The notes beneath the pieces are model-generated. The model saw only the letters and a program-made list of their open reading frames with translations, was not told the origin of the DNA and did not search any database. Positions 12,101 through 53,188 of a stretch of DNA of 64,000 bases are shown one piece after another (within the stretch, counting starts at the first letter, position 1; every line of letters starts with the position of its first letter). The DNA comes from Bolinopsis microptera (lineage: Eukaryota; Ctenophora; Tentaculata; Lobata; Bolinopsidae). The stretch is taken from assembly GCF_026151205.1 (NCBI RefSeq), contig NC_087077.1, forward strand, positions 18,398,475 to 18,462,474. Direction: 5' to 3'. Position numbers and translations under genes: made by a program.

Positions 12101-12111
12101 CTAGTGACCAA

Positions 12112-20105: not shown

Positions 20106-20235
20106 ACTGTCAAAACGTGAGAGTAGTCACGTGACGCTCGCTAGCCAATCAGCGCGCGCCATTAACGCGCTATATTCTCAGAACGGCGTATGTTCCCCCA
20201 TTACTGAATTGCACACTTTTCTGCCGCTGCGATCG
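20040..20235. promoter_or_regulatory. Probable bidirectional promoter
   Basis: A GC- and CpG-rich island (GCCGCGCGCGC, AGCGCGCGCCATTAACGCGC) stands out in AT-rich surroundings. It has an E-box in GTCACGTGAC at 20127-20136 and a CCAAT box (GCCAATCAGCG) at about 20144. It separates a minus-strand donor at 19949 from a plus-strand signal-peptide exon at 20328. Divergent transcription is inferred. Confidence 0.5.
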
Positions 20236-27462: not shown

Positions 27463-27576
27463 ATGTTAATATTGGAGATGATCTACGATATGGTGGTGTC
27501 TCCTCTAGAGATGTTCAAGTTCAGGACGATGAGCCGGAGCAGGAGACGGGTATCCTCCCTGGACAGCTTCTATCGG
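27463..27576 (+). CDS. Candidate alternative first exon A (docking protein)
   Basis: The ATG at 27463 opens 38 codons ending in phase 0 at a consensus donor (TATCGG|GTGAGTAG). The peptide starts MLILEMIYDMVVSPLEMF, and its basic second half is FRTMSRSRRRVSSLDSFYR. It is on the same strand as the PH/PTB docking gene, whose second exon (50668) begins in phase 0, so the two are splice-compatible. An RSRRRVSS run could be a basic-kinase or membrane-targeting site (inference). Confidence 0.45.
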
Positions 27577-30011
27577 GTGAGTAGTCCTGGTTACTGGACT
27601 CTCCTTCGTCTAGAGACAGAGAAACCTTACTCTCTATCCAGCACTCTTTACACCTTGATAACTACACGTCAGGGTAGTAGTCTAATTAATATACCAATTA
27701 TTATTTACCTGATCACTTCCCAATTATCAGCACTTACTTACTTACTTCTCACTCGGGCCGATAAAGCACTGTTAACACTCTCCCAATTATCACTCTAATT
27801 ATTAGAACTCTTTAATGTGGTGTTTCCTGTTGTTTTAAATTAACTCTGAGAGCCCTTCTTTTAACCGTGTCAAAGAAGGGCTCTCACCAAGTCAGACGTA
27901 AAGGTCTTCAAAGGGAGCTTCTCACTTGTCAGTGCTCTTTGAAGGTGTAAACAGTGAATCACTAATAAAACACTTTGAAACCAGGGGAGGAGGTTATCTG
28001 TACTGTTAGAAAACTTGAGAAGTACGCTAATCTAGGGGAATATTATCACTCAGTATTTGGGGAGCCCGGCTGGAGTCTGACCCTGGAGTCATGGTGTCTG
28101 TATTAAGAGAGTCATGGTGGACCCCCCGGAGAGAACTGGACCCAGTCTTAATTTGTATCATTACCACTCATCACCATTATCTAAATCACATATTCGTCGT
28201 ACATGTCACGGTTTTGAAACACGTGCAACTAGGACATGTTGTCATGGTGACGTCATGGAGCACGTGTAATGTCTGGGGACAGGTTGTCAGGTTTATACCT
28301 ACAGACAGTGGCGTTTCCTACTCCAAGCTATTACACTCACGTGACTTACTGCTGATCTATGATTGGTTCTCAGGTTTTAATGCTTTATTGTGATTGGTGC
28401 GTGCTCCTATTGAGTGAGGTAATTGGGGCTTCTGATGAATTACTGTCGTCCCTCTCGCTCCATATTTGGTGTATTCAATACTCTCAACTTCACATTAAAC
28501 ACAATATGACACATACCTTTCTAATTGGACCTATTCACGACTAGCCTGCTTCAGACCGTACCATTACAGCACGCTTCATTACAATTACTTCCTCAGTCAC
28601 CGGTCACCTTGACATGGGAATCTCTCACAATATCCCCTGATCTTCTCAACTTCAACTCCTGAAATTAAAAAAACAACCACAATAATGATAATCTAATACC
28701 TGTGACCTCTGTGTTTTAGAATAAGGTTTCCCGTGTTAACAGTACAAAGGGCCGCTACAGGTGAGGTGTTACTCACGTTTAACCTTGAGAGTATGTTATA
28801 ATGCTTACCTGTTACTGTAACATAGAGGGAGATGGTTAAAAACAATCAGGGTGATTGGGGCCCACATCAGTCCAGAATACCCTGGGTCGAGGGGGATCAG
28901 GGGGCTGGGAGTAGGGGAGGAGGGGAGGAGGATCTAGCTGCAATTATATCATGACATGTTGGGAGTGCTGTGTTGTAAAGAGGTGATAAGGACAGGATGT
29001 CCCCTGGTGATAGAGGAGTCTACTCAGGGGAGGAATATTGTACAACCAGAGTTGAGGAGTAGAGTAGATAAGAGGAGTAGAGTAGATAAGAGTAGAGTAG
29101 ATAAGAGTAGAGTAGATAAGAGGAATATTGTACAACCAGAGTTGAGGAGTAGAGTAGAGTAGAGGAGAGTTTGATTAGTCGAACTAAATTATTCGCTTAA
29201 ATTGTTGGCGACAATATTATTATATTAAGCATGTAATATCTAACCAACATATTCCTGGCAACATTTCGCTTTGTTTTAAGTTTTAAACGGTCCGGATTAA
29301 GAAGTTGTACTTTATTGTTTTATAAAGCTGAACTCTGGTGAACTCTAGGGTACGTGGGATGTGGTATTTTTTGCTTGAGGTAGCGAGGTGGCGCACCTGT
29401 AAGAATAATGTCTGTACCGGGTACTTATCACTTAAACGGGGGATTTCAATTAAATATCCGCACTTTGGTGTCTGGAGAAGCGTTGTTTGAGAGAACTATC
29501 ATTGGATTATCCCGGGTGTGTAAACCGACCAATGACCATCAACCTCACAACTCAGAAATATGAATTCTTAGAATTCCTCCAAACCTTTAAAGCTTCAACT
29601 ACGTCATGCTTGCGCTAATATAAAAACTATCACCACTACAAGGACCCCAAATTTGGCAAATAATACGAATAAAGCGTGATTTAACTGATTTTAAATTGTT
29701 CCAGTCCATTACCAGATTATCTTGGTGCCTGTGTGAAATAATCCAGATAATTTACAACTCCGGAAACGTGTCTTGACGTCAGTTGTCGTCATACCTTCCC
29801 TCTCTCCTCCTCTCTCCTCCTCTCCTCCTCCGAGTGGAGCTATTATTGGAGGAAAAGTAAGTTTATCAGGAACATGGAAGCTTTACTTTAATACTTCATA
29901 CTTACCTGATTATTACTAACGTGGATATTACGGTGGGGGATGTCTGGAAAGGGATTATTACCTAAAATTGTGGGAAAGGGTCTAGTCGCTATAAAGGGAT
30001 GGCTCGACTCA

Positions 30012-30095
30012 TTGCTATGGCTCGTTGTTATGGCTCGTTGTTATGGCTCGTTGTTATGGCTCGTTGTTATGGCTCGTTGTTATGGCTGGTTGCTA
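30012..30095. repeat. 13-bp TATGGCTCGTTGT minisatellite
   Basis: Six units of TATGGCTCGTTGT with variants at both ends (GCTATGGCTCG, TATGGCTGGTTGC). Confidence 0.85.
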
Positions 30096-30910
30096 TAGCG
30101 GGATGAGAAGTGTTAGGGAAGTACCCCAGAACCGGATATTCACATGATCATGATACCCCTGAGCTGTATCTACCAACACTGTTCATGGGCTGATTGCCAG
30201 TTATCTACCCCTCTCCTGCTTATTATATCTGTAGTAGTACTATTAGTATCTCTATACTCTAGTTTATAATATTATATCTCCCTACTCTACCTCTGCTCTT
30301 TACCACCACTACAGGGCCTGATATAGTGCTATTAAAGACACAGTTCCCCTTGTAGTATATACTAATACTATATATACTTTACTGCAGTGTATTTACTAAG
30401 TCTTCAGATAAAGAAGGGTTAACCTGTCTTGTTTAGTGCCCTAATCTCCTCCTAATAGTGTACCTACCTGCAGATATCAATATACTAACTAACTACTTTG
30501 TTAGAGAGGGGTTTTAGTCTGTATTATCTAGAGTTCCCAGCCGTGCTTTTACTGTAGTTTTACTGTGCTTTTACTGTTTGTGTTTTACTTGTTATTTGTA
30601 CACATGATCCCCTGACAGTGTGTCTAGTTAGTTGTGTAATCATGAGCGTATCAGGGGAGACATGAGAGTCTTCTCTCTTACGTCTGTAGTCTGTACAAGT
30701 GCTGCTATGCTACAGTGAATAGTGGGTAATGTGCTAGAAAGAGCTTCATTTCCCAGACCTCCCCGATACATGCTGTAACCAATAACCATGTACATCTTTA
30801 CTCTAGTCTCTACTAATCCTACCTTCATTCGATCAAGTAGTCCCCCTCGTAGTAGTAGCACCTTGTGAAGCTGTCTTACACCTATAATACCTTTTACTAG
30901 TAGTAGTAGC

Positions 30911-30991
30911 TACCTCGTGCTCGTGTAGCACCTCGTGTAGCACCTCGTGTAGCACCTCGTGTAGCACCTCGTGTAGCACATCGTGTAGCTG
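30911..30991. repeat. 12-bp CACCTCGTGTAG minisatellite
   Basis: About six tandem CACCTCGTGTAG units. Looser relatives continue to about 31110. Confidence 0.85.
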
Positions 30992-32545
30992 CCTTATACC
31001 TGCTGCACTGTCCTAGTAGCACCTAGTAGTTACCTGCACCGTACCTTTAACCTTGTGGCTTGTGTAGCTATCACCTACCTTATACCTGCTGCACCGTGCC
31101 TTGTGAAGCTGTATAAGTCACTACATTATAATATTATACCACATTATTGGGAGGATACGCCTTCTTGCTCCCCGTTATGGTGCTCCTCAGTAAACCCTGT
31201 TAATTAATTAATTAATTAACGATACCTTACAACTACTCTTCCTACTTCCTCGAGTAGTACTGTAAAAACTGGTCCCACTCTCAGTTCCCTGAACTAGTTA
31301 CACTCTCCCTTACTCCTTACACTACACTCTCAGTTACTTCTCTCACTCTTATAATTACTTCAAATTACTTCAAATTTGATCGGAACTACACCAGCATTCT
31401 TTCTCTTCATTAAAACCGAATTGATGAGGGAAATGGGGGCAGTTTGCCTCACTCTCTCCTTCTCTCTCTTCCTTGCACTACGCTCAGTGTGTATAACTAA
31501 ACAGTGTATGTTGTAGCGGCGACTTGTTTCTTAATCCTGCAGTATTGGTTTAGCTTTAATGCTGTGTAATTGCAGGTTTAGTCAAGCCAATCTGAATCTG
31601 CTTTAGAACAAGTGCCGGCTTGCACCGCGCTGGTTGCTATAGCTGGTTGCCATAGTGCCGGCTTGCACCGCGACTTCAGGCTTGCTCCGTTATACTGACT
31701 CACTCGGTTGCACCGGGCAGCTTTATTATACTGACATTCCTGCTATGTAAAAATATTAGCTGTCTTTACTGCTCTGCACTGTAGTGCTTTAATTCACTTG
31801 TTATCTTGGACAACGTTTTCTTTTGTTTAAGTGACACGAATTTACCATTGGCTGTAAAGTTCCTCTACTGCCCCTGGTCCGATTATTTTCTGTATTCTTC
31901 AACTCTTCAATGCACCGGGTAGTCTTACCCTGAAGCCTTTCAGATAGACGTTTCTCTTCTGAAGATTGTACTGCACAATACTCCGTTCTTTTTACAGAGG
32001 TAGTGAACAGTCTTGTGACCCCTAGGATGAAGCCGTGCAGGCTGAAGCTTTGTGCATACATTTGCTGGGATTCATGGGAGAATTCAATTCTTCGGTAGAT
32101 CAGATCGGAGATTATATCCGTTATTAGAGGCAATCTTACTGGTAATCTTGCTAGCAATTAGCTGTCAGTTCGCCCGTGAACTCTATATCCCCTTATAGCT
32201 AGCTGTCACTACAACTGTCAGGGCTTCACGATCAATCGCTTACCAATCCTGTAGTCCTACTTCACCGGCGAAATTATCCCTTTTTGGGAGAATTCCAGTT
32301 GATAATATAACGGTCGGACTATTAGTGGAAGCTCGCGATTATTTTGTAATACTATTTATTGTTAATTTCGTGGTCGATGAAATTACTTTTTCACTCAGAA
32401 GAAGTGACAAGTAATAGACCTTTTAAGTTTTACTATATCAAGAACCTGCGATTTAACGGAATCCAAAGAAATTAAAATACTTCAAGAGAAGTATTTGATC
32501 CTAGTCCAGAATTCCAAGCCATCCAATCCGGCCCTCGTACCTCCA

Positions 32546-32630
32546 ACACGTGGTACCCTCTGTACAACACGTGGTACCCTCTGTACAACACGTGGTACTG
32601 CTCAGAAACACGTGGTACCGCTCAGAAATG
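32546..32630. promoter_or_regulatory. Four tandem CACGTGGTAC sites
   Basis: CACGTGGTAC occurs four times at about 21-bp spacing (AACACGTGGTACCCTCTGTA units, then variants with GCTCAGAA). The cluster lies about 300-380 bp upstream of candidate first exon B. Confidence 0.6.
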
Positions 32631-32923
32631 TCGAGGCTTCTAGTGTAATTGTTATGTTGAGGAGCTTTTAACGCTCGCGAATATCTTCTTCGTATCTTCC
32701 CGATCAGATCAGATATGTTGCGTTGTTTGCTGTATTAAACTATTTGTTATTGCTAATTTTCATAATAATAGCGCGGCTGATAGCTTCGTAAACAGTAGCT
32801 AAACTGTTAGATTCAATGATATGAATCTCTTTTAAGCCTCTTAGTTCTGTTTGTCTGTTTGATATTTATATAATGTTAACCGTGTTGGTATCATTGCTAG
32901 TGAAGTTGCTCGAGTCTAAAAGA

Positions 32924-32968
32924 ATGAACTGGATGTGGTTCGGTAGATCCAAATCTTACGACAGCGGG
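32924..32968 (+). CDS. Candidate alternative first exon B (docking protein)
   Basis: The ATG at 32924 opens MNWMWFGRSKSYDSG and ends in phase 0 at a consensus donor (AGCGGG|GTGAGTTA). It is splice-compatible with the phase-0 acceptor at 50668. The peptide is short, aromatic and basic. A cluster of four CACGTGGTAC boxes lies just upstream, which supports a promoter here. Confidence 0.45.
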
Positions 32969-33034
32969 GTGAGTTAATTTAGCTGAGTTTTAGAAAATTC
33001 CTCGAACTTTCGGTATAATTATTTGTCAGTGAAA

Positions 33035-33500
33035 AGCCATACATTTGTATTGCTGAATATTTGTCATTAGAGCGTAATACCACTGCCTTAAAGTCGTCTT
33101 CCAGTCTGTGAAAATTCAGGTAACCAAAGACAGACTGTAACCAAACGATGATCACTCTCGACCCTCCTTCTAGATTCTCTGTCCCCAAATGTTGTCATTG
33201 TAACAATATTGACAAGTATTAAGGGCCAGGGTCCTGGCAGCCCCTGTCAGCTCGGTTTGCTGCTCCGTGATCCGAGTGGAACCTCAGGCTTACCACTGGC
33301 ACCCAACAATCATTGACTAGAGAGCACTACCAACCTAGCACGCACCAAATTGCTACATATGAGCTGCTACTACCGGCTTCTAAGTAAGGTTTTGGTAGAT
33401 AGTCACGTCTCAAGTGAAGCGAACGGTGGGACGACTTTGGAGGAGCTAGCTGAAGATTTTAGATATTCCCTCTTGTGCATTGTACGGTTCAAGTGCGGTT
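33035..33500 (-). mobile_element. LINE-like fragment, inverted relative of 5600-6075
   Basis: Reverse-complement identity to 5600-6075 is clear over about 450 bp (for example the CTGTCAGCTCGGTTTGCTGC block). Translation on the minus strand near 33120-33185 again gives SRRRVESDHRLVTVCL. Frames are interrupted. Confidence 0.5.
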
Positions 33501-35567
33501 TTGATTATCATGGTTATTGGTTATGTGATGAAAACCTAATATGGAATCTGCTAATTTTGAATAATTGTTCGGCACAATCGACACTTGGATTGGAATGATT
33601 TGGATTTGAAGTCATCGATCTAAATGAAAAATGTCACGTTGACACAAATATTTCAAATTGTCGCGTTTACTCCATAATTAGTACCTGAAGGAGCTGTTTC
33701 AGAAATTTTTGTGGCTTCCTTGGACAATCTGGGGGTCCATAGTGACCTGGTCCTGAAGTACAAACTTTATCATTTTTAGGGCCACCGTGTACCACCAGTT
33801 TCTAAAATGAAAAGGAAGTCTCGATGATAAGGCGTTAATTTGCGAGGGTGGGCCCGTTCTGTGGTATTAGTTTTATACCACAAGGTTATAAGATTGGAGC
33901 TCGTCCCATAATCATTTCCTGATATTAGGCCCTGTATATTATATAGGGTCCCCGCCCGAAATAACATAAATTAAACATCCCGTAAACAGTAAACGTTGTA
34001 GGTCTTGGTTATTCTAGGTATAGTCCCCCGCAAATATCTGGGATCTGGGATTAAGAAAAAGTTTTTATCGATAAACTTTAAAATTGATTACACAAAAATA
34101 CATAATTGTATCATTAAAAATATTCGCCGAAAGACCTGTTGAAAACACTGTTCATTTCCATTCTCTTATCTGGGACCAGGGGTTGTAACCATTACATAAT
34201 CTAATTTACTCAATGACCCAAACAACTGTTTAAACCAGCGTTTAAAATATAATTAAAATCCCAAACATCTAGACCTTGATTTAGACTAGATTGTCTGAGA
34301 TCACCCTCGTACCTGACACGGAATGTAGAGTTACAGTCCCAGCACCTCCTACCTGTCTATGTTGACACCACGTGGGCGCTAATAACGTGCACGTGGGCGC
34401 CGTACTTTGTTCCTAGTGGCTAATGATCGCTAATCAGATATTATACCTGTCACTAATTGAATTTAGAACTTGAAACACATATTGACTGAGTGATCGGGTG
34501 AGGTCTATATTGGGTCACATATCCCCTCTTATCTGGGGAGGACTGCATGTTGGGAAGCGATTACTAGCCCTGTATTCATTCTGCTCATTAAAAATGAGAA
34601 ATGTTGGCGCTAACTTGTCGCGGTTATCATTTTAAATCACTTAACATACTTGAGGGTGCGATTAGTGGTGGCAGAAGGGTCAGTGAGTCTGAGACCCAGC
34701 CACACCGGTGGAGACCCAATGTTTCCTCTAGTATTTACTGGTTCTAATAATGACTTAATCTCACGCGATCTGGAAACACACGTCAATATGATTTAGGAAG
34801 ATATATTATTGTCATTGTGACCAATGTTCTGTGATCTTTTGTTAGTTGAATTACGAGGCTTTAAAACCGGATCTTACAGTTCCTGTAAGTGTTCAACACT
34901 TGAAGATTGTATAACCAACTTTAATAAGTTTACGTCACACTCATATTAGATCAGGAGTAGAACACACACGTTCGGAGTCCCAGAGACCATCTTTAAACCT
35001 TCTAAATCAAGTCACATGACCTTCTAAATCATACTCCCAGACCTAAACACCTCAACTTCCCTGCCACATCAATAAACAACAAATTTCAATGCAACAAAAA
35101 CCGGCTCACTCATCAAAATGATAGTCAATAGATTGAGTAGTTCAAGTTGGACAATGGAACAGTTCCTCAACGTGACATCATCTGTGCTCGCTGATTGGCG
35201 GGAATTGAGCGTCACTAAAACTACCTTGTCAGTGTTTGTTAATACTGACTGGGAGGGTAATTTAGCCCTGTCAACATTAAGCTGCATGTTCTGCTGTATG
35301 AGGTATAGAGTTATAACACGTGATATTACAATACCGCGTGTCACGTGATATAACAATACCTCACTCCGCAAGCACGTAATGACATGTTGCAGGAACTGTC
35401 TTTTTTTCAACTCTGATATCAGTTAGTCAGGCATTTCTTCTTACTAGCTCTCTGTTTTTTAGTTGTCGTCATTGTAGACTCTAACCGGGTTAGTTTTGTA
35501 GTTTAAATCAACATATTTCATAGAGTTTCTTGATAGTTGTTACTTCTCGGCGGCTTTTATCTTCAAA
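33501..35567. other. No gene seen
   Basis: AT-rich. E-boxes occur near 34370 and 34392 (CACGTGGGCGC twice). Two CACGTGATATNACAATACC units lie at 35320-35360, and a TGATTGGCGG box near 35190 precedes candidate exon C. Frames at 34835 and 35118 reach donors in the wrong phase. Confidence 0.35.
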
Positions 35568-35603
35568 ATGGGGAGGAGAGCTTTGATCTACTATCTTCTT
35601 AAG
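35568..35603 (+). CDS. Candidate alternative first exon C (docking protein)
   Basis: The ATG at 35568 opens MGRRALIYYLLK, ending in phase 0 at donor CTTAAG|GTGAGATC. A glycine at position 2 followed by arginines raises the possibility of N-myristoylation, which would suit a membrane-recruited adaptor (inference). The ALIYYLL run resembles the SLAIYYLN of the proximal first exon at 50225. Confidence 0.45.
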
Positions 35604-38600
35604 GTGAGATCAACAAAAAAGTTATTTCATGTTAGAAATTAAATAACGTTTCCCCTAATTTTAGAACTTTCTTTAAATAACGATTTAAAATTTCCTTGAT
35701 GACATCATCAGATTTGAAACGCAGAAGTGCACTATTTTAGGGACCTTATTATTGTGGTGATCATCCGTGATTGTGATGCAGATCATGGTTACCATTCTAA
35801 TACTGATTTAAACTTCCTGCTGTTCCCTGTTCTGTCCAGTTCCCCTTGTCTACTGTCTACTTCTCTACAAGAGGAACTGAAAGAGACCGTTAATCTGCAC
35901 GTGCAGCTCAGTTTGCACGTGCAGCTCAGTTCCACACGTGTACCAGTACTTATCAAGCAGTTCCCTCCACAACAAGTACATAGTACTGCACGTTAATCAC
36001 CACTTCCAGTATTGTTTGCCGTTTTATCCCCTCTTTTGTCAAGCAAGATTCTCTCCATGTTTACGGCTTTGTAAATCAGTGAAGTACTCACCCACGTGAC
36101 TAGAGGTCCTCTGCTCTGATTGGCTGGTTTGAGATCGTCCTTCTCGCTGATTGGCTGAGAGTTCTCCTTAATTCTAGAGCAAATTATTGCGTGCACAATG
36201 CCAGTACTTGAGATTAAGTCTTTAGATCAGTAGGAGTAGAATTAAGGAGATTAGAAGATTACAATTATAATTTTAGTCTCTTCGGCGGGGTATTAATTGC
36301 TGGTTTGAAGAGAATGATTAATAACAGTACACAACTTAATCAGTAGATAACCTAGTGGGCCAATGTTTGAAGAGTATGATTAGCTTTTAATTAATTCCAC
36401 TAATTTTGGAGTCTGTAGTGCGGGGAGTTTAAAAGGCTAGATTATATTCTTCAACATGATTTACGATGAAGCATAGCATACAGTTTATCTTATTTAAGCT
36501 TTTTAGGAGGGATGTACAGTTAGCCTTATTTTAGGAGAGATGTCTACTGTCTAGCATAATGGAGTGTTTTAGCAATGTTTTACGCTGACTAAAACGTTGA
36601 CTAAAACTGACTACTGAGCATTGTTATACACAGTAAAAAGGGTTATTTATCCCGTGTTTCTAAAACGTGAGTTCTAGCTCAGGATGGTCGAGTAAACAAT
36701 ACAAATCTAGGTGTCAGGCTACAATAGAAGGGTAGCAGCCAGGCTCCTGTCTGACGAGTTTAAATTGGAAAGTTGCAAACCATTGCTAAAACTTTCAACT
36801 CCAACCATTGATTTAGTTAACTATTGATTTAGTTAGCTCGTATTATTTGGGGACGTGATGTGACTCTTTTGTTTAACTATAGGGAGTAAGCCGCCCTGAG
36901 GTCAGATCACAACCACATAGTAACTGGGCTGTCTTAATTACACCTGTCTTACATAATAGTATAATATATTTAGTAATCTATAGAACAATATATAGTAATA
37001 TCTATATATTATATAACATCATTAGCCGTCAGCCTGTCAAAGCGCTTTTAAACCTTATTTCTATCCTAATCGAAGATTATACGTCCGATTATTATTAATT
37101 TCACCGGCTGAAGACTCATGCAAAACGAGATTTAAACGAAAATTATAGCTGGTTTAGTCGTGCTCTGTTAAAATCAATGCATTATAATCTCATCTAACTT
37201 ATCATGTGATTGCAATGATTAGCAATTTCGCGCATAAATATCCTAGAAAGGGACAATTAAACCCGGTAAATTATTCCTAATCTACTGCAATGGAAAAGGA
37301 CATTATTAAAATCACCTGATAGCCCCCAAATTGCTTGTTAGCCCACAAAATAGCCGCTAAAGTAAGGTCCTTGTTTTCTCTCTAAGGAAATTTCAAAACC
37401 CCTTAATTTTTAATCCTTATCTCTGGAAAACGGTAATTTTATCTCCAAATTTCCAAACATTTGCCCACAAAAGAGCGCTTGTGTAAGGTTTCTTTAATAA
37501 TAAAGCAATAAAACCTGGAACCATGTTGTGACTGAGTGTGACGGTTAGAGACAAGGTCCGGACACTGCTGGGGGTGAAACTGTTAATCAGGTCCGTGTTG
37601 GAGCTGGCAATGGTAAACAACCAATCAGAGAGCTTCTAGATTAAACATTGACCAATCAGAACACAGTATCAGACCCCAGTATCGGCCATCGGGCCCAATG
37701 GTAATGGTAAACTATCTGGGGCTGGCACTGACGTTCTGATCATCAACCAGAGTCCCTCAAATCAGTGATCGCGTGACTTAGTGGAGGTCTTTGATTGGTA
37801 GATTTGTTAGCAAGTAGCTGTTGATTGTTTATTAGCTCGTTTTAAAGACTTGTTAATCATGCTGACTTGCTGATTAAGATCTATTAGAGAGGTCAAAACG
37901 AGATTGTGTCTAGGTGTCACCATTTAGGTTGAAATCACTGCCAGTTTCACTGCCAATTATTGAGAATAAACTGTTTTCAACGGACTTATCACCAAATCTC
38001 ATATGCTAAAAATAATCTCAAAAGGAGATTCTTTCTTAGGATCTTTCCAGTTTCCACTGGTAACAGGTCACCCTAGAAGGAACATTATCTTGCTAATTCC
38101 GTGTAAGACAACAGTAGGGTGCAGGTTCATGTTGGTCCTGAATGAGAAGATCACAACAATACGGAGCCGAGCTGGCTCCTGATAATATTGGCGCTGTCTC
38201 CCATGATGATATATGGTATAGGACCCAGCATGTCTCTAGTGATGATCTCTGTTATAGGACCCAACATGTCGTACCTGATTCTCCCCCCGGAGATATGACA
38301 CCTGATATATTCTGCAGACCCTGGACACGCCTCAGTTGCTGAGAAGTAGCTGGTACTGACCTCCTAGTGTCTTGACACGTTTAACCCTGTTACTCCTGTT
38401 ACAAGTACGCCTCTTATTTAATCTAGTAACCAGCCAATTACAGAGTAGCTAGATTAAACAGCAACCAATCAGAGCACAGGATCAGGTCCCATGTGATCAA
38501 CACCTTCCAGTGGGACGGTGGGAATTGTTTCTCGTGATTTTTTGTTTCGCTACCATGGTAACTTCAATTCCTTAGTGCTTATTGCCCATTAGCATTGTAA

Positions 38601-39560: not shown

Positions 39561-42500
39561 AAATTCAAAATATTCGTTGCTTAAGTGACCGAATTCCATC
39601 TGCATTTTTATGCCATCTGAGTTAATTATTTTCCCGGTAACTTCTTGTTTTCAGATGATTGGTATGTTTACTTTACTATAGATGTGATTCCCACGCGCTC
39701 ACGAATTCCTTTCTCCAAACAGTCTCGTGTGTTACTTGCTACTTGTTAGAAGCTCGTGCTGGAATCCGTCCAGTCTAATTATTCTCATATCCAGTATTAA
39801 TTTACCATGTATAATATCTTCAGTAAACTTTACTTAATTCCTGGTTTGAACTTGTGATTATTCGAGGCTACTTTTAATGGTTCCCTCTAAAATCAAAACG
39901 TTCGTTCTAAATATTTGAATGGCGCTGCTTCTAATCCAAGGCTTTGTGATTGGACTCTGTAATTAGTAGACCACCTATAAGTCGACATATCTCTCATATT
40001 TATCATATTATTGTTTTATATTTAGGATACCTTCATTCTTCGTGTCAGTTAAATTCTAATAAGATCTGAGTATCTTCGTGGTTGGCGGAGACCTGCCAAA
40101 TACCCTGCATTTCCTGTCAACTCTTCAATCTCAACTGTAATGAACTTTACAGCATTTAAGACAGCTCAGATCTTAGATAATTCAGTTATTATACCAAATA
40201 TGTGGATATGAAGATATTTTACAGTTATTATTTTGAAGGAAGTCACTTTATTCATGGTGGGTGGCGAGCCGTTTGAAATTAACTATTTTGCATTTTCTTC
40301 TGCCGAAAATAAGGCCCAATGAAGTTCTCTTAAAAAAGCACCAATTAAAGTTGAGTATTCGCAGATTAAAAGTTAAAAAGTTCCAATAAATTCTAAAAAT
40401 AAGAACCAATAAACGTTGAGTATTTAAGAGATAACCCAACTGGTTATCTGGTGACTTAGTGCTCAGCTCCTCGTATTTATCAGCTAGTTCCCTTGGCCGT
40501 CTAGTAGTAGTAGAAAACTCTGAGTTGTAGCTGTTTGTTAGTACCTTGCTCCGAGTTTTAGCAGTTCGTTTTCAGAGCCCAACACTATATTTTAGAAGTC
40601 AGATAGTACCAACTGTACCATGTCCACCAGCTTACCAGTACTACCCTAGTACCAGTCCTACTCTAGTACCAGTCCAACATACTTACTACTAACATCATAC
40701 TAAAGAGTGTTCAGTTATTTACATACGTCTGACATTTAAATTAAATCAAATTATTTTATACGTTTAAAGCCATTTAACTCGGTACAGTAGTAGTCACTCT
40801 CTTGTTGTAACATACATCATCAGACTTCCCCAGCTTGTATCTAAAAGTCTATATAACTTCCTCGATTTGCGTAGACCATTAAATATTAGATTAAAGTTCC
40901 CTGAATTCTAGCACTCGCGATGTGACGTGAGATTGCCCTGAACTCTTGATTACGAGAACAGACGGACGTTATTCTTGTTCAAGTTGTAGAGAGGTCCTCT
41001 ACTTCCATACTCTGCTTTTATCAGTCTCAGTTCACAGCTCGTTTGATTCGTCGTGTTTAAAAACCTCTTTAGTTGGCTTGTTAAAAGTTTTGGGACTGTT
41101 TAAATTTGTGATACTCCCTGAGCTGCCCCCTGTTAAACAGCCCCCTGTTAAACACCCCCCTCCCCCTTGTTAACATACAGCTTATCTAAATAACAGCCCC
41201 CTCCCTGTACTGCAGCTGTACTGCTTTATTACACATGACGTAACTAGATATGACATCACCCAGAACCATCACTTTCGTTCCGGTTCAACCCCCGCTCTCT
41301 TCCGTCTGCAGTCTTAATTAATGACCCCCCCCCCCCCCCCCCCCCCCCCCCAGCATAACACGTTGCTGGTGATTTTACTTCAGTCACGTGACATGTTGTA
41401 ATATCACGTGACTGGTTTTCTGGTTTTCTATTGGTTCTTATCCCGTCCTGTTTGTACGGTTTTGTAGGGGAGGACCCCGCAATTATACACATTATACACT
41501 TAGTAAAGACACTGTTCCAATACTACTCTAGTATTACCCTGTAGTATTACCTGTATTAGTCCTGTGTAAGTGTTTACTATTTGGCGGGTCTAGCTGTCTC
41601 TGGTTCTGACAAGAGACGTGACCAGTTGAGAAGTTGACACTAAATACTCACTAAAACACTTTCCACTCAAATACTTCTCACATCTGGAGGGGAAATAAGT
41701 GTATCGTTGGGGTATTTGTTCGTCAACTATATTCGATCATGGGAGTAGTGTTAAAACAGAGTGTTTTTTGTGGGTTTGAATTCCAATTTCCCTTAGCACT
41801 GACAAACACGCCTTTTACACTGCAGATGATTTTATTTACTGTCAGGTTATTTTAACTTGTGAACTAAGTTCACTCTCCTATCCTGATACTGCTCTAATAT
41901 TGCACACTTCTACCCTGATACTCTGATACAGTCCACTTCACACGTATTTTACCCACTTCACACGTATTCTGCCGATTGACTGAAATGAAATCAACTCATC
42001 AGAAAGTCTCAGGCGACTGAGCCTGTATTTCCCATAGTGACATGACGCACACTGTAACTGTTGCTGGCTGTTTTAGCGTTTATTTTAGATCGCTTACAAA
42101 TTGTCTCTTCCTGCAACTGGTATATTGGTATGTTGCAGCACTGTGCCCCCTGCTGCACCACTGCCGCCTTGCACCCCATTTGCTTGCAACTCTGCTACAC
42201 AAATTTACTGAATATTTAGTTTTTAGTTTTAAAAGGTTCCGTCTTCCAGTCTCGTACAGTTTCAGAAACTTAAAATTTAAAGTTCCCAGTGCCCCGTCAG
42301 TTCTTATTTCTGATCACTATTGCTCATATTAGTAATATTAGTAATATTACTGCTCTCTCTCCGTCACCACATTACTCTATCCTATCATCTTCATTAATAT
42401 TTAATACTGACTGTGGCGTGCTGTAACGTGTGCATCTAGAATCTAGATATTATTGCCATACTTATTGTGTGGCATTATTTTCGTGGAGCGTTCTAGAAAA

Positions 42501-45500
42501 AGTAAATATTTATTAATACAAAGATAATGTTAATGTTGCTAATGTTGCTGCGTTTCGCAATAATGGTGCTAGAATTTTACTGAGGTTAATGTTCGTGATA
42601 TTGCTAGAAAAGTCAATGTTTAGTTGCGCTCCAACAAGTATAATGGAGCTGTTTGTTTGTTTAGTTGAATGACTAGTACGAACAGACTAGATAAGTTAAA
42701 GTAGCACTTGTTCTGCACTGCATTGGAGCATGGTCATCAATGTGGTATTCACTACAGATCTAATGCTTGCTCTCAGTTTCTCTGAGAATTGTTTAATACG
42801 CTCCGTTTAAATTGGTTGTCTCCGTGTAAGCTTTCAAGTTAGTTATCCAGTTCTTATTCTGTCTCGTGTAAACTCTCAAATGGTTACTCAGCTTTTATCC
42901 GCAAGCCGATCTTTAACACCATCCAATAAACTCTCGCTAATCTGTAAATAGTTAACCGTTAATAGTCTGCAATCAGTAAACAGTTAATAGTTTTCTGCAC
43001 CCACTCTCTAAGTAGTGAACGGTAACTCCGTGTCTCGTTTATTATTCACGGTTATATATAGTGTCCTGATATAGAGTTCCCCCTAGTCCCTGCTACTGGA
43101 GTAGAGATGTTGCAACTCCCTCTGTAACCACCTAAAATATTTAAGATAACCGTACAACCACCTGTAACCAGTAATAGTTATGACAGGTAACCATCACTAA
43201 CCGTTTGTAGGGGGAGCTTGGTAATAAGGTAACTTGGTTTGTGGCGAGACCCCTTCTAACTAAATAACCACTGGATAATCCTTCATTACCGGATCCTAAT
43301 GTTCTGGCATTGTCTACTACACACCAAATTAAATTCATCATCATGTGAGGTCCGAATTTTCGTGAAAAACATAAGATCATTGCCTAAAATATGCATTAAA
43401 TAAAGGTTCATTCTATTTCACTGTGTAACCAGCAGGTAAACCTGCGTCCAAGCTGGGATCATGTTCATCCTGCTCCTTTATAGTTATTAGTTTAACCAGC
43501 CAGAGCACAGATCTTATATCTTCATAATGGGACTCAATATTCAACCAAACCCGCATATTTCATGACAATATTCTGCTCTATCTCTAGGTTTAGCGTGAAG
43601 CTAATGCGTATATATCAGCTATATAGCTGCTATCTTCACGTGATAAAGCCCCTATCTTCACGTGTAGGTTTAATTAGATCCTAGTGCTATGTCCTGTAAT
43701 AGAGTGAGCTTGTTTCTGTGTAAGTGTGGACTAGGTTCTGTAGTTAGCAGGTTATTAGGCTCACCTAGCTTCTGTAGTTAGCAGAGAGAGTTTTTGTAAG
43801 AAAATATCACTCCTTCCTGAGTTCCACCCAATCACTAGCTAGCTCTCAGTGTTTCCTTTAGTTGTTATTAGGCTCTGTATAGGGTTCTGTAGTTAACTTT
43901 AGTGAATTTAGCTCAGTGTTTCCTTTAGTTGCTATTATTTCCTTAAGTCGTCTTGTTATTAGGCTGACTTTAGCAGTCGAGTGTCGATTGAGTCGTCTTG
44001 TTATCCCATGAGAGACTTCTCACCCTGTTATTAGAGATAACTCCTTGTTAAGTTACTGAATTTGTTTCCGTTGTGCAATTTCTCAGTGCAGTTCGGTTTG
44101 TAATTCCTCAGCTATAGACTGGGCGGTTACTTTTTTAGTTTAACGGAATTAAAGATAAAAAGCTTTCTAAAAACGGCCGGCCCCACTTCAAACCGCCTTT
44201 CTATTTGTGTCGGCTTGATTCTAATTGCTTGAAGGTGTTCGGAATGTTGTGAACATGTAACAGAGTTGTGACATTGTGCAGTTTATAATTAATGAGATTC
44301 TCTCTCCAGCTCTGCTATGTCGTAATGCTGTCCCGGCCCCCGGGCCCGTCATTTGCCTTGTTTTTCCAGCACGCTTAATATATTGGATTTTCCGTGTTAA
44401 AACCCAGAATAGCTACCTTCCAATTGTGTCATCAAATATTATTTGGGGCATGACTTAGTTTCGTTGGAATCTGTCCCCGAGACGAAAACCTGGCATCCCA
44501 TTTTTAGAATTCTTGAACTCCACGTACACTATACTGTGTATTGGCTGTTCTGTGTCCGTGATGTCATGAGTATAATGCTACAAGTCAATATAATGCTACA
44601 AGTCAATCCCTACTAATAAATTACTAATGTCACACGTTAACTATCTGCATCACTATTGGAATTACGGTATCACTATTGCCTACTGTTCTTTCAGCTTACG
44701 TTTCTGCCGAAGCGGGTCTTTTGTATACTCCTCAAGGAAATGACAGTGATATTTCTGATGAAATAATGATTTACAGTGTCAATAATTTCTCGCACGTTGA
44801 GTGTTGACACCGTAATAGCAAGTTAATAAATAGCATTTTACATCAATACAAGGAGTTGCTCTTTGCGGACTTATTCCCGACAAAAATTGCTTTTACTTGC
44901 CTTCTTTTTTCGGTACTTTGCGGTACTTTTACGGCACTTTGCGGCACACTGATTTGATTTCACTGCGTTATAATAGATATTTCTCAATTAAAGGTTTCAG
45001 TTTTGGTAGTTGTGGCTTGTGTAGATTTCTTTTTGCTCCAAATATTCCTTGATTTCCTTGTACGAGCTACCAACTATTCAATGTTACAGCATTATATTCT
45101 CATGTAATGGTGCTGAATGATTGCTCTTACTACATAATTCTACAATAACGTCATCAGTACATCGCCCCGGGGCCACCATTAGTCATTACTGTCAATACTC
45201 ATCTCTTTTGTATGGTCTGGGACTGGCCCGAGGTAATGCACCTCTGAAAAGAGTAATAACGATCTGGAGTGTCAGTGATTTCCGTAAAGAAAACCCTGAT
45301 ACTTACCACCATGTGATAGTTACACTGCATTAGCATTGGTCAGTTTCTTCTTCTGGAATGTTGCCAAGAAGTCCACATGGCAGTAGTCACATACTTTGGG
45401 CACACAACATGACATTTAATATTACCCTTTATTGCTTTTATTGCAGTTTATACCAATCTCTACTCTCAAGTTTATATTGCTTTGTTTAATCGTTTACGCA

Positions 45501-46589
45501 GTTATTTTACATCACGAAACATTTTTCAGTCAAATCGATTGTTATTTTTACTTTTCAGTTAAATCGATTGTTATTTTTACTGTATATTGAAGAAATCCCA
45601 CCGTAGAAAACTATGACAATAGAAAGAAACTGTTGTAGAAACAGATCCCCTCAAACCGCTAGAAACACACATCAACCTGCTCGAAAAATAATTCCTTGTC
45701 TGATTGAAATAACTCACAGAGATTTCGATTATTCGGCTCACCACTCTTTTCTTACAGTAAGTATGGGAAACTACTGAGTGACAATTTAATAATTATAAAG
45801 ACTATATTATATATATATATAAAAAAAATATATATATATCCGGCTAAGTTACAACTATTATTTATTATACGTCAATATTTTATCAGAGTCATTCTTGGCA
45901 GAATTGTCCAGCAGTTTAAAAAATCAACATAAAATTTTAAAATTCACATCATCAAGTACCTCTCCGCATTCATTTTCACAGTTCTTACACTCATTTTGTG
46001 CATGCTCACGTTAAAAAGGGACCGTTACTCTACAAACAAGCAGTACACAACCACAATGTCAACACAGTCAGCTTCTCCTGGGTGGGCGTCATGCAGTGCT
46101 CTTCTTCCCGGACCTTTAGTTCCTGACCGGACTATATGGGAATATATTCCTTCATTATGTATGTGAAAAAATGTGAAATTCCTGGTAAGCATGTTGTTAG
46201 TAGCTTCAACTCAGTGCTTGTCTAGTCAAATAGCTCCGTGCATTCCCTTAACTACTACTCTTAACAGATGGATTGCATCATCGGAATGGGGGAATGGAAT
46301 TTATCTAGACCCATTGTCCATATTGGGGTTGTGCCTATAACTCTACCTAAACGACAAATCAATCGTTATAAATCTGGGTTTTGTGAATTCCAACGTAGCA
46401 AATCATGAAATTGAACTTTAATCTCCGTAAAATAAAGGCTGGAAAGTTCTAAAACAACAAAGTAGAATGTGACTAGCAGTTAGCAGGATGTCTTATGTTT
46501 TGACAGTCACGTACAGGCTCCCGTTCTCGTTATCAAATGGTTCACACCAATGTTATTGTAACATCCACCTGCCTGGTAATGGGATCCCG

Positions 46590-46700
46590 TGTCACAATTA
46601 CCTGTAATCCCTCCTCCCTGATTGGGGGATATCACCCACGTGCTCTACTCCCCTCCTCTGGTTGGCTGTTGCCATGCCCACGTGGTAGTGACACGTGGGC
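46590..46700. promoter_or_regulatory. CCAAT/E-box cluster upstream of exon D
   Basis: CTGATTGGGGG, CCCACGTGCTC, GGTTGGCTGTTGCC, CCCACGTGGTAG and ACACGTGGGCGC lie within about 80 bp, some 300 bp before candidate first exon D. Confidence 0.45.
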
Positions 46701-46996
46701 GCTGCTAGAGATCTTGACACATTGCTCGCGGCATGTGTACAAGACATTGTATAAACAAGGAAAAGTAATGTCACGGAGTAGTCACCTGCTCCTTTTCTCC
46801 TTGTCAGGTTGGACGTGTTATAATATTAGACACTGCAGCGTACTCTCCGTCATACTACTACTTCTAAAACCAGTCATCCTTGCTGTTCTGTAGTTATAGT
46901 TCTACTTGTTTGTAGTTCTACTTGTTCTGTAGTCTGTACTGTTCTACTTGTAACTTGTAGTTCTTGGTTTCGTCCTACGCTCGTATCTTTGTGAGG

Positions 46997-47041
46997 ATGT
47001 TTCTAAAAAGGAAATCTTGTCCTCTAGCATCAAAACCCTGG
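46997..47041 (+). CDS. Candidate alternative first exon D (docking protein)
   Basis: The ATG at 46997 opens MFLKRKSCPLASKPW, ending in phase 0 at donor CCCTGG|GTGAGTTG. It is basic and short, like exon B. It is splice-compatible with the acceptor at 50668. Confidence 0.45.
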
Positions 47042-47234
47042 GTGAGTTGCACACGGTATATATTAGAATTGTACCAGTAGTTTTGGGAGAATGTCCACTT
47101 GTTGGGGGCCTGTGAAACTTGCTAACTGATCGTTATATCAGTTAACCCAGTAACATGTCCTGCTCCTTCATAATATGCCCCTTTCTTGAGCCTCCCGGAA
47201 TGTTTGGGGCCAGGAAAACAGCGATAAACGTAAC

Positions 47235-47345
47235 ACGTGCACCGTTAACGTTAGAAAACTAACGTACCCCGTATCTGGTTCTGATTGGTGGTAAAATAAC
47301 ACGTGATATTAATACTCTGCTATGATTGGTCGAGGATCATGTGCG
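47235..47345. promoter_or_regulatory. CCAAT/E-box cluster upstream of exon E
   Basis: ACACGTGCACC, CTGATTGGTGG, ACACGTGATATT and ATGATTGGTCG lie within 110 bp, about 100-200 bp before candidate exon E. This resembles the arrangement before exon D. Confidence 0.45.
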
Positions 47346-47432
47346 GTAACCCTCGTCCCTTGGTGTTGGGTAGCATATTCTTTTCAAACATTTGTACTTT
47401 GAGTTTTATATTTGTTGACCGCTGTTTTAACG

Positions 47433-47501
47433 ATGAGTTGGTTTGTATCTGCTAAGAGAACTGCAGGACGAGTTTTAATGGGATCTGATACCAGCTGCAA
47501 G
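47433..47501 (+). CDS. Candidate alternative first exon E (docking protein)
   Basis: The ATG at 47433 opens 23 codons starting MSWFVSAKRTAGRVLM and ending in phase 0 at TGCAAG|GTAATACT. The donor is weaker than those of exons A-D. The aromatic-basic composition (MSWF, AKR) matches exons B and D. Confidence 0.45.
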
Positions 47502-47905
47502 GTAATACTACATAACCTGTATATTACGTATATATACAGATAACCTGTATTATAATGAGGAACTTGCCCTTCCCTTTATCTTGCTCACTTCCTCACCCGA
47601 GTATCTTAAGGCATTAGTGTCCGGGTAGTGCTCCTCAATCATCAATCTTGTCTATCTACACTTCCTCACTAAACATATAATCAGTATGTGACATAGTGAC
47701 TGATAAGGCTCGCTGTGAGTTCTAGTTCCACTGATATCACGAGAAGTTCTACTTCCTAATATGGAGGTACAGTCTGGGGAGTTATCTATTTTAGAGTATC
47801 AAATTCAGAGAGATACCAGGAAGAAATAAGTTAATTAATATCGGTGGGAATAATGAAAATCATTGGAAATATCTTTAAATAACCAGTGTTAAATAAAACT
47901 GTTAA

Positions 47906-49262
47906 GGGGGGGGGCCAATGGATATTTTTTTGTGAAACTTGATTTCGAGATAGCAGTTGACCAACAAACTAAGACCAGTGACCGAACTTTTGAGGGGGTC
48001 CCGGACCCCAACCGCCAAACGGTGCCCGCGGGGCAGCCACGCCCATATTTGGTCCAAATTAGGCCCAATTTAGCCAAATACTCTGAACATGCCCAAAACC
48101 CAAATTTAAGGTGCTCTACTTGTAGCTAGTGGTCTCCTGAACTCGTATATGAAATTTCATCAAGATTGGACAAAAAATGACTGAGTTATGAGCCAAAAAC
48201 CATATGCCCATATTTGGGCATACGCACCAAATTTGGTAGATTTCGTCCCATAAATTGGTCAAATATCAATATTTTTCACTGAAACTTACTTTATATGAAA
48301 GGTAAGCCTAAACTACATATTCTCTGTAAGTTATAGCTTTATATCTGTTTCATTGTGGATACTAAGGCGAAAAGACCACAAAAAATGAACTAAATTGCCC
48401 ATATCTTGGTTCGCGATATTCGCGGAATTGATCTCATTAAAATTGTAACAACTCAATCAGTTTTCAAAATTTTTCCATAATATTTTCGGAATCGACTCGA
48501 AATCGCATTTCCACCTTAGTTTGAGAACAGATTTTTGATTAAGGCCTCAAAAAAAATTTGGCGGCCAAATTCTGAATTTCTCCGGGAAAATTTTGGAATT
48601 TGGCCGCCAAATTTTTTTGGAGGCCTAAATCAAAAATCTGTTCTCAAACTAAGGTGGAAATGCGATTTCGAGTCGATTCCGAAAATTTCATGGAAAAATT
48701 TTGAAAACTGATCGAGTTGTTACAATTTTAATGAGATCAATTCCGCGAATATCGCGAACCAAGATATGGGCAATTTAGTTCATTTTTTGTGGTCTTTTCG
48801 CCTTAGTATCCACATTTAAACAGATATAAAGCTATAACTTACAGAGAATATGTAGTTTAGGCTTACCTTTCATATAAAGTAAGTTTCAGTGAAAAATATT
48901 GATATTTGACCAATTTATGGGACGAAATCTACCAAATTTGGTGCGTATGCCCAAATATGGGCATATGGTTTTTGGCTCATAACTCAGTCATTTTTTGTCC
49001 AATCTTGATGAAATTTCATATACGAGTTCAGGAGACCACTAGCTACAAGTAGAGCACCTAAAATTTGGGTTTTGGGCATGTTCAGGGTATTTGGCTAAAT
49101 TGGGCCTAATTTGGACCAAATATGGGCGTGGCTGCCCCGCAGGCACCGTTTGGCGGTTAGGGTCCGGGACCCCCTCAAAAGTTCGGTCACTGGTCCTAGT
49201 TTGTTGGTCAACTGCTATCTCGAAATCAAGTTTCACAAAAAAATATCCATTGGCCCCCCCCC
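47906..49262. mobile_element. 1.36-kb foldback element with TTAA flanks
   Basis: Two inverted arms of about 660 bp meet at a spacer of roughly 15-30 bp near 48575. The outer ends are nine G then CCAATGG, and CCATTGG then nine C. Both sides are flanked by TTAA (47902-47905 and 49263-49266), the target duplicated by piggyBac and Kolobok transposases. The arms differ at only a handful of bases, so it is young or gene-converted. No transposase is present. The mirrored 65-codon frames in each arm are repeat by-products. Confidence 0.85.
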
Positions 49263-49269
49263 TTAAATA

Positions 49270-50224
49270 ACAAGTGTCTCGTCAATACGCAATACTCAAT
49301 GTCTGTGTTGGTATTGGTTACATATCGGTCACGTGATGGTTGCTATGGCGTTTCTAAAGACTTTAACGTCAAATACATACTGGTGATTAAATTTAACTGA
49401 CATGGGTCGAATTACACCGATGTCAAATATAGATAGGGAGGAGGAGTACGCAATTCTCTCCGTTGCTTCTCTTTCCCATGGTTTTGTTTCGTATCCCCCG
49501 TAACATTGAGCTGCTAAAATCTCCTCTTTTCTGTACGAAATTATCACAAGTCAGTGGCACATGATCTCCAGACTCGGTGATACAGACGGCATGAGATTAT
49601 AATTATAATTACAATCCGCGGGTAACGGCGATTAGAGGGGCTTGTTGTGAAGTGTCCCTGTTAATTGTTATCAGGGTTATAATATAAATTAAATAACAAT
49701 CTGAGACCAAACCTTGTGTTGGGCGATTGGTTGTGAGGTCACTCCTTCAATGTTAGATTTTATACAGTTGAAACCTTTTCGTTTGCAAGTCAAGTTGTTA
49801 AACCTAAATCACTCTGGTGCCGAAGCCAACATTTCACTGATTTTGGACAAACCAGTGCGTGGTCTGGCAAACTACGTAACGTGTACTCAAGTAGTGTTAA
49901 GTAGTATCAAGTAGCTATAATAACTGCGAGGGTAGTGGCGAGGTTAGAGAAGCCAGGGTAGCATAACACAGACCACAGTGACACACTTACATCTCTCTTA
50001 GTGACAGAATGCGTGCGCAAGTAGTGGCGTACGTGTCGAAGTTACCACGACGCTCTACCCCGAATATACCAGGGCTACTACCAAATATATCCCTCTCGGC
50101 TTACTGCACTATTCCAGCATTAGACAGTGTGATGCGCGCCCAACACTACTACACTATAACTACTACTATTACTTAGTATACTCCGTTAAGTTTCCCGTAT
50201 CTCTTGTTGTTTTGCTCCGACACA
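49270..50224. other. No gene seen; probable proximal promoter region
   Basis: Short frames without splice support. The part just upstream of 50225 presumably holds the proximal promoter of the docking gene. I see no clear E-box or CCAAT pair here, unlike upstream of exons D and E. Confidence 0.3.
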
Positions 50225-53188
50225 ATGTTATCTCTAGCTATCTACTATCTGAACCGAGCCATGGTCTCCAGACAGAAGTCCCTGAGAGCTCTTACTACTG
50301 ATTGTAAATCTGACTCTCAGTTCTATGTCAGCCCTTGTTGTCAGGTACTACAGAACTGCTTGTTTCCTCCTCCGTTCCTTCATTTCACTCACCCTTATTT
50401 GTTTAAAGACTGGGAAATTAGTCCCTTTGTTACTTAGTCAGGGAAATTTCTCCGAATTCGCAAATCTTTGTTTATCCGGACACGTGGAATATCTTTTTGG
50501 ACGGCTATCTCTGTATAAAACACGTACAACATCATTTGTGGATTCAGCGTGATGGTCAAACACAAACAAGATGGGGGATAATTATTTACTAAAGAATTGT
50601 ATCTGCTATTATTTGTTAGCTATTATTTTACATAGTATTCTGATAACTAACAGATGTATTATTTCAGGATCAGGTCCACGTGGTAAAACAAGGAGTGTTA
50701 GGACTCCACCTGGACTCCAGCTCTCACAAACTAAAGAAACCTAAGAAACTTACCAGTAGGTGGAGCGTACTGACTAGATGCGAGAAAACAGGACAACACA
50801 CACTGCACGTGTGTAAAACAGACTCCCCTGATTCCAGTGTTAAAGATAGCTTCCCTGTTCAGGTTAGTTTCTATGGTTACTTAATATTGGCATTGTTACT
50901 TACTATATTGGCATGGTTACTTACTTTTATTTGATAGTTACTATTGGCATGGTTACTTACTTTTTAATACGCTCAACTGCACTTAATAAGGAACTTAATC
51001 TTCCATTTCCTTATTTTAGACAATTGACTCAACAGTTTAATAATAGAGACACTAAACCCCGCTTCCGTAGTAGCTTGAGACTAATGTACCCAACTTATTT
51101 ATCCTCATTTTTTGGCTATCGATTTTATGACTTGCCCTTTAGTTCAGTTACTCACTTATCACATCATCTCCTATATTTATATAATCTATATTAATCTCGG
51201 TATTTTAACTTGGCATTCTGGCTCTGAAACCTCAGCTACTTTCCAGTACCTTGCACTTAATACCTTAGGAATTAATATTAGGTTTTAATATTATCAGTAA
51301 TCTTAAAGTAATCGGGCATTCCAGACCTCCGGTATGCCAACCATTCTGACTATTCTCACTGCTGTGTCATGGTTCACAATGAAGGCATGCATTGCTGATC
51401 AGCTGTGGGTAGGTGGTAGCTGTGAAATGTAATGAATAGTAAGAAGACAGTAGGTCTGAAGCTAGTGAAATATGCAGGATAAGTGATACTATAATCTAGT
51501 AATGTCCTTTAATAGACCCCCCTATATAGGGTCCCCCCTGTAATATAGACCCCTGATCTAGTTATACTATTAGGGCACGCTACTCAGCCTCAGCTAGACA
51601 GTTATTACTCTATTATCTACCCAGTCTACTTCTCCTGCTGACACAGGGCGCCAATTCTCCTCCTACCGTCCAGCTCTGCTCCATTTTATCTCATTTCTCC
51701 TCTTCTCCCACCCACTCCGGTGCCTACTTGGCGAGGAGTGTGGGGCTGTAGTGTGAATCTGGGGCTGAAAGTGCGGAACCGTAAACATAGAGCCCTCCTG
51801 GGAGAACAAACATTACGTGTCTGTTTCCTTGAAGTAGAGAGAGAAGTTTGGGTATTCTATGCTGCTAGTTGTGGGGGAGAAGTTAGCTAATAAGACAGTG
51901 TTACTCCTTACTATCTGATACACACATGTTAGGTCTCCTTGCTCTAGTCTAACTGTCTCCAGCCTCACTGCGCAGATTACAGCTCTTAAATCTCACCTCT
52001 ACGTGTTAGAACCTGCATCTGAATTCGTATGCTCCTTTATAATATATATCACTCCCGTCTCCGCTCTGTCTTCTTAATTTCGGACATTCCTGGCGGAGTG
52101 ATATATATTATGAAGGAGCAGGACATGTGGCAAGCAGTGGTGCAGTGTAGTTTTATTCGTGTGGTCGTAAAGTTGTGTGTAACTTAGAGCGGTGTTTATT
52201 CATAAAGAATTCATTGTCAAAAAGGTGACACTAACAAGCATTAATAACATCACAACTATTAATACAGTTTTCATTACTTACTTAACAGTTACCATCGTGT
52301 CTGATGTATTGATAGTATTATCTAACTTTCTCTCTATTTCAGACTTCTTGGAGTATCAAGAGTGCGCACTGTTTGAAGAGCTCTCAAAGAATGGATATCT
52401 TCAAAGAAGAAGGTGAGAACACTGACCAATCACGTGTTACTATTTCCCAACCAATTATAGACCAGCACGTGCAAACGATATTCAATAGTTGAGCCAATTT
52501 ACTATGATACAATTCGTGAAGGGCCCTGGAAGTTCGTAATACCACAGAAATGCTGTGTAATCACTCAGTACTGCAGGCCCTGTATATCTGTACCGGTCAT
52601 ATTCACGTGCAGTGTTTTTACAATTTTCACGCTTATAGCCCCGGAAATTGGTCACCCTGTTCGAACACACAAATTATAATATATTCACCCATAACCATCT
52701 CGCACCGCCGGCGCCGCCAGAAAAGATAAATCTCGTGTCTCCTCTCCAGTCCCGAATTTTTGGAGAAAATCTGATCTTTTAGAACCAATTTCGGTAAATT
52801 AAAGTAGGGTAACTTAGGAATGATAATTGCAAAGAAGGAGCAAAAATTCGGTTAAAACTTAAGAGCCCTTCTTCCCTGATAACCACATTTTTCAACGTGA
52901 ATCACGGCTTATTGCTCCTTCATAAACACTTCACTAACGTAACAAAGGGAAATGTTTGCTTTGAAGTAGTCTATTTGCCCTGTCTATTTATCACCATTAT
53001 CACATTAACGTGTAATTGTATAATGATTGTTTACTTAAAGTTAAAGTTTTAAAATTAGTGCTGATTTCAGGATTTATAATACACATGGGCCGACAAGTAG
53101 CCTACATAAGCTCCTCTTCAAGAACTGAGGTGAAGAGTTGGATGTGCGCTATATTGGAGGGCGTTACATTAGGTAAGCAAGTCTAACA

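Follow-up and report, generated by a model that had tools for sequence, protein, structure and literature searches.

Organization of the probable docking-protein gene

The locus described here is a 64-kb stretch of the genome of the ctenophore Bolinopsis microptera (C6:18398475-18462474; GC content 39.3%), referred to below as the window, within which all short coordinates are counted from the first base. On its + strand the window carries a gene for a probable DOK/IRS-like docking protein, preceded by a long region with several short frames that may provide the first coding exon of this gene. The genome was searched as 264,652,675 bases in 232 contigs; its published description gives a size of 265 Mb, 13 chromosomes, the largest of 26.2 Mb, and a GC content of 38.5% (PMC11797021).

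The body of the gene consists of seven + strand exons, positioned by eye, whose phases agree and which together form an open frame of 509 residues between 50668 and 55180. Exon E2 (50668-50862), with phase 0 at both ends, encodes the N-terminal half of a putative PH domain, which continues through E3 (52343-52412) into its C-terminal part on E4 (53071-53172). Exon E5 (53406-53552) shows a weak match to an IRS-type PTB domain, the rest of which would lie on E6 (53785-53927). Exons E7 (54110-54370) and E8 (54569-55180) encode a tail with tyrosine motifs, and E8 closes with a stop codon. The PH domain is matched by Pfam over residues 6-118 with an E-value of 0.0027 and 18.6 bits, compared with a curated cut-off of 25.1; the IRS (PTB) match has an E-value of 0.2 and 12.1 bits against a cut-off of 22, and its position and order after the PH domain fit. 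The tail contains YMNM (on E8), GYMTS, IYEDM and other tyrosine motifs of the docking type. On the basis of domain order and motifs, the gene is assigned with moderate certainty to a DOK/IRS-like docking protein. A phmmer search of the Protein Data Bank (PDB) yielded no credible relative of solved structure (one match, E 0.95), and a scan of viral contigs for relatives gave six pattern matches, none of which was confirmed. In a genome search for a second copy only the docking-gene locus itself matched well, the next match having an E-value of 4.17, and therefore no paralogue or second haplotype copy is usable for comparison.

Exon E2 cannot contain the start of translation. It is preceded by TTTCAG and opens in phase 0, as a preliminary description of this DNA had stated, and its frame extends upstream for only seven codons (LTDVLFQ) before meeting a TAA at 50644; neither this extension nor the exon holds an in-frame ATG. 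An upstream coding exon that ends in phase 0 is therefore required.

Candidate first coding exons

The same description listed six short ATG frames upstream of E2, each ending at a GT donor in phase 0. All six are present on the + strand and all six lengths are divisible by three. Four of them have strong donors: 27463-27576 (38 codons, donor CGGgtgagt, score 11.3), 32924-32968 (15 codons, GGGgtgagt, 10.38), 35568-35603 (12 codons, AAGgtgaga, 10.66) and 46997-47041 (15 codons, TGGgtgagt, 9.13), the last being the strong candidate closest to the PH exon. The first of these frames could also start further in, at 27529, where an ATG preceded by A at -3 leaves 16 codons, the second reaches an upstream ATG at 32873, and the third starts with A at -3 and G at +4. 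The remaining two frames, 47433-47501 (23 codons, AAGgtaata, 5.45) and 50225-50344 (40 codons, CAGgtacta, 3.59), are weak candidates. Donor and acceptor scores were obtained with generic animal matrices, not trained on B. microptera. On this scale the gene body's own six donors score 7.8-10.7, compared with 9.1-11.3 for the four strong candidates, whereas those at 47501 and 50344 fall below the whole of this range. Multiple candidate ATG exons with donors of the gene's own strength thus stand in the phase of the acceptor at 50668. In a DNA search of the genome, which skips very common words, each of the six frames matched only itself; none looks like a dispersed repeat, and an origin of these exons from repeats is rejected.

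Frequency of strong-donor frames

The abundance of such frames was compared with a background of 20 stretches of 10 kb from the same genome, read on both strands (400 kb) and scaled to 23.4 kb; this background includes real genes, and its rates are not purely those of chance. Frames were defined as an ATG followed by 12-40 codons and a phase 0 donor scoring at least 3.5. On the + strand between 27.0 and 50.4 kb, 21 frames fit this definition, six of which are those listed above. At donor thresholds of 3.5, 5, 6, 8 and 9, the region contains 21, 15, 8, 5 and 4 frames, respectively, compared with 18.25, 10.0, 6.67, 1.75 and 0.82 expected. The class with strong donors alone is clearly above background. 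At a threshold of 9 the excess (4 versus 0.82) has a Poisson P of 0.01, with the threshold set after seeing the data; in 300 dinucleotide shuffles the mean was 0.78 at this threshold, with a probability of 0.01 for four or more, and 5.5 at a threshold of 6, where 8 were seen. Chance probably accounts for the frames at 47433 and 50225, given their weak donors and the abundance of such frames (10-18 per 23.4 kb).

The strong frames are also unevenly distributed. Both strands of the whole window hold five phase 0 frames with a donor of at least 9, of which four lie on the + strand within the 23.4-kb region (binomial P 0.005); the remainder of the window has none on the + strand and one on the - strand. 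Counted by phases 0, 1 and 2, donors of this class number 4, 1 and 0 in the region and 14, 13 and 12 in the background. All four strong frames offer a start codon with A at -3, compared with five of the 14 background frames of the class; 0.29 frames with both properties would be expected. The donor thresholds of 8 and 9 and the -3 rule, as well as the 400-bp span and the peptide pattern used below, were chosen after the six frames had been seen.

Strand asymmetry of the upstream region

From 20161 to 54000 the + strand shows a sustained excess of T over A, which fits one long sense transcription unit. Between 20 and 56 kb, every one of the 18 bins of 2 kb has a negative value of A minus T, and the turning point lies at 20,161; of the 34 bins of 1 kb between 20 and 54 kb, 30 are negative. 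The 2-kb bins at 12-16 kb are negative as well. None of 5000 permutations of the 1-kb bins produced a segment as strong, in a test that ignores the correlation of neighbouring bins. The asymmetry amounts to -0.081 at 27-37 kb and -0.095 at 37-47 kb, compared with -0.088 in the introns of the docking gene, and 16 of the 20 random 10-kb stretches have absolute values below 0.06. Eight further loci encoding PH domains were read in sense orientation; outside long frames, six of them are weakly T-rich. These data suggest one long sense transcription unit that would start at or before 27 kb and end with the docking gene. The asymmetry thereby favours the far candidates, without indicating which of them would be used.

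Properties of the candidate N-termini and their upstream regions

The six encoded peptides are not detectably related to each other. Their summed pairwise score of 212 compares with 201 (SD 11) for shuffles of the same composition (P 0.17) and with 199 (SD 47) for background peptides (P 0.19), and homology among them is rejected. For the peptide and codon comparisons, five of the 20 background stretches, rich in simple repeats, were excluded. Net charge per residue ranges from 0.07 to 0.27, compared with a background mean of 0.05 (SD 0.11); as a group the six ends are not strikingly basic. Four frames (27463-27576, 32924-32968, 46997-47041 and 50225-50344) encode a patch of the form [RK]-[RKSTQN]-[KRV]-S, compared with 4 of the 312 background frames (1.3%). 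This pattern was defined once the frames had been viewed, and one of its four carriers is the weak-donor frame at 50225. Such patches might allow a basophilic kinase to switch the N-termini and thereby control membrane binding of the PH domain, a role that we regard as quite unlikely. A suggested lipidation of the peptide starting with MGRR is rejected, since the N-myristoylation pattern PROSITE PS00008 admits neither the Arg after Gly nor the Leu at position 6.

At least two copies of CACGTG lie within 400 bp upstream of four of the six candidates (P 0.006 relative to random positions in the region); the same holds for 10 of 305 background frames and for none of 30 with a donor of at least 8. 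The window contains 45 CACGTG words (0.70 per kb), compared with 0.395 per kb (79 words) in the 200 kb of background stretches. Genome-wide, however, pairs spaced by 18-23 bp are about tenfold more frequent than those of the reversed hexamer (15060 versus 1534), and the places listed for them, in the first 0.71 Mb of C1, comprise single pairs as well as arrays, with differing spacers. In the window and the 20 stretches, CACGTG occurs in the consensus unit of 6 of 137 tandem arrays with a period of 14-45, and within this sample it therefore does not generally mark arrays of this kind. Because close pairs are frequent throughout the genome and several of the local ones belong to small tandem repeats, the CACGTG clusters are given little weight as promoter marks.

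Interpretation and alternative explanations

Taken together, we consider it rather probable that one to four of the strong frames (27463, 32924, 35568 and 46997) are real first coding exons of this single-copy DOK/IRS-like gene; that two or more of them work is about as likely as that only one does, the balance being close to even. The start codon must lie on an upstream exon that joins 50668 in phase 0, and each working frame would have its own transcription start or spliced-leader acceptor. Each working exon would give the adaptor a distinct N-terminus of 12 to 38 residues with a net positive charge, placed a few residues ahead of the first strand of the PH domain. Transcription of these exons, their splicing, the use of more than one of them and any effect on targeting are predicted here from the DNA sequence.

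Several observations weigh against this reading. The codon usage of the six frames lies at the 55th to 72nd percentile of background frames, and that of the frame from 27529 at the 20th, in a codon model of low power that gives the gene's own seven exons only -0.08 to 0.145 bit per codon. The acceptors 5' of the six ATGs are ordinary, with percentiles of 27-87 among 305 background frames (out of 312, with only those lying 500 bases or more from the start used), and two of the strong four are near background in positive charge. Both the -3 rule and the donor threshold of 9 are post hoc, and at other thresholds the counts compare as 5 versus 1.75 (threshold 8) and 8 versus 6.67 (threshold 6); once one exon is taken as real, chance would add three further ones with a P of about 0.05. 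Two of the 20 random stretches have a greater A/T asymmetry (above 0.1). Finally, poly(A)-signal words, which might be depleted in a long sense intron, are not depleted on the + strand between 27.0 and 50.6 kb (AATAAA 14 versus 14 on the - strand, ATTAAA 30 versus 21).

The alternative that survives best is that only one first coding exon is real, be it one of the strong four or another, and that the other frames are chance frames in a long 5' intron. We give this explanation, which overlaps with the proposal of one to four exons, somewhat less than an even chance. It agrees with a background that by itself yields 0.82 strong and 10-18 weaker frames per 23.4 kb, with the P of about 0.05 for three extra frames, and with codon scores at background level. 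It accounts less well for the concentration of the strong frames, four of the five on the two strands of the window lying on the + strand here, and for the possible A(-3) start in all four.

A less probable alternative, and on balance an unlikely one, is that a spliced leader is trans-spliced onto a single upstream coding exon, which would make a promoter array unnecessary. Probable spliced-leader RNA genes do occur in the genome: the motif AATTTGAGGTANGATTAAGTTC, derived from the locus of one of three matches to the leader of the ctenophore Hormiphora, gives 112 matches with at most two mismatches (52 + 60), compared with none for a reversed control. Many of the matches listed lie in tandem arrays, at C3:13.511-13.534 Mb, C5:21.342-21.352 Mb and C13:12.78-12.95 Mb, with a spacing of about 591 bp on C3 and about 858 bp on C5. 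A search of the genome for the Hormiphora leader itself was negative (three matches, each with three mismatches, versus two for the control). According to PMC8527503, the leader is present on 56% of Hormiphora Iso-Seq reads, and the leader end AATTTGAG, which the probable Bolinopsis leader RNA genes also carry, is reported for ctenophores. However, a non-coding leader from another locus gives the PH exon no start codon and leaves the coding frames unexplained; trans-splicing would add to the question of the first exon and cannot replace it. The acceptor scores 5' of the six ATGs, being ordinary, do not speak for it either.

It is improbable that some of the frames instead open other + strand transcripts, for example those of genes nested in the intron, and are not spliced to the docking gene. 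Nested intronic genes are frequent in Hormiphora, for which PMC8527503 reports 2357 of them. Ten longer frames between 27.5 and 50.2 kb, however, gave no Pfam match above cut-off (best mTERF, E 0.0056, 16.1 bits versus 23.1), and a second coding body was not recognised in the frame list of this interval, a result that does not extend to one built of short exons. The earlier statement that the interval contains no internal coding exon is consistent with these ten frames but unproven, as the codon model lacks the power to dismiss short exons.

The full array of six working alternative first exons, as originally proposed, is very improbable: every one of the six frames exists in the required phase and had no match but itself, and four have paired CACGTG upstream (P 0.006), but the donors at 47501 and 50344 fall below all six of the gene body and at background level, where such frames are common, and paired CACGTG is itself common in the genome (15060 versus 1534) and here partly tandem repeat. 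The proposal stands in part: E2 requires an upstream coding exon, four candidates have strong phase 0 donors above background, none of the six looks like a dispersed repeat, and the strand asymmetry fits a single sense transcription unit.

Other elements in the window

Between 47902 and 49266 the window contains a near-perfect palindrome with arms of 682 nt that are 98% complementary and 1 nt apart. Its bounds show TTAA next to G/C runs, as do seven of ten fetched copies, those with ends located. Tens of copies were listed on C1-C13 (39 of 1900 candidates were scored), nearly all 96-99% identical; the element therefore appears to have been recently active. It looks like a fold-back miniature inverted-repeat transposable element (MITE) with TTAA targets, of the piggyBac-like kind. 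At 62305-62706 on the + strand lies the start of another likely coding exon (MEGEDWTYYGITILP...), without Pfam matches up to an E-value of 1. Frames at 6741-6998, with a C2H2 zinc-finger match (E 0.0014), and at 8375-8863, with a weak DUF7869 match (E 0.016), both below cut-off, are perhaps parts of a decayed mobile element spanning 6741-8863. Long simple arrays at 1793-2300, 3809-4202 and 12111-12363 have as units the 6-bp ACCCTG, the 12-bp CCATCTACTACT and the 9-bp AGAGGGGTT, respectively. A search of Rfam gave no match at gathering scores.

Comparison with known systems and significance

The predicted protein resembles the vertebrate DOK1-7 and IRS1-4 proteins in the order of a putative PH domain, a putative IRS-type PTB domain and a tail with tyrosine motifs including YMNM. 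The PH domain would start within a few residues of the splice join, and VVKQG there resembles IVKQG in DOK4-6. Differences are the Pfam scores below curated cut-offs, the start codon on a separate upstream exon and the ctenophore host.

Alternative coding first exons are known from genes such as PDE4 and GNAS. As in these genes, short unrelated N-termini on distant first exons could join one common body in one phase; here, in contrast, use of the exons is predicted from sequence, with at most four strong candidates. The UGT1 and clustered protocadherin loci, which the preliminary description had invoked as following the same logic, are similar in that a common downstream exon could receive any of several exons upstream of it. 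Their variable exons, however, arose by duplication, are large and code for entire domains, whereas those at the present locus encode 12-40 residues, are not detectably related to each other (P 0.17 and 0.19) and show no sign of tandem duplication, and the parallel is not supported. Among the papers listed in literature searches, judged by title and the start of the abstract, none deals with alternative first exons, be it in a DOK/IRS gene or in ctenophores, which does not imply their absence from print.

If only one of the candidate exons is real, the upstream region is an ordinary long first intron. If the proposed arrangement is true, the locus is an instance of a well-known kind of gene, that with alternative coding first exons. 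Use of at least two exons would mean that, in a lineage among the earliest of animals, promoters diversify the N-terminus of a receptor-kinase adaptor, with only one copy found here compared with the seven DOK genes of vertebrates. It would also provide a test of how alternative promoters coexist with widespread spliced-leader trans-splicing.

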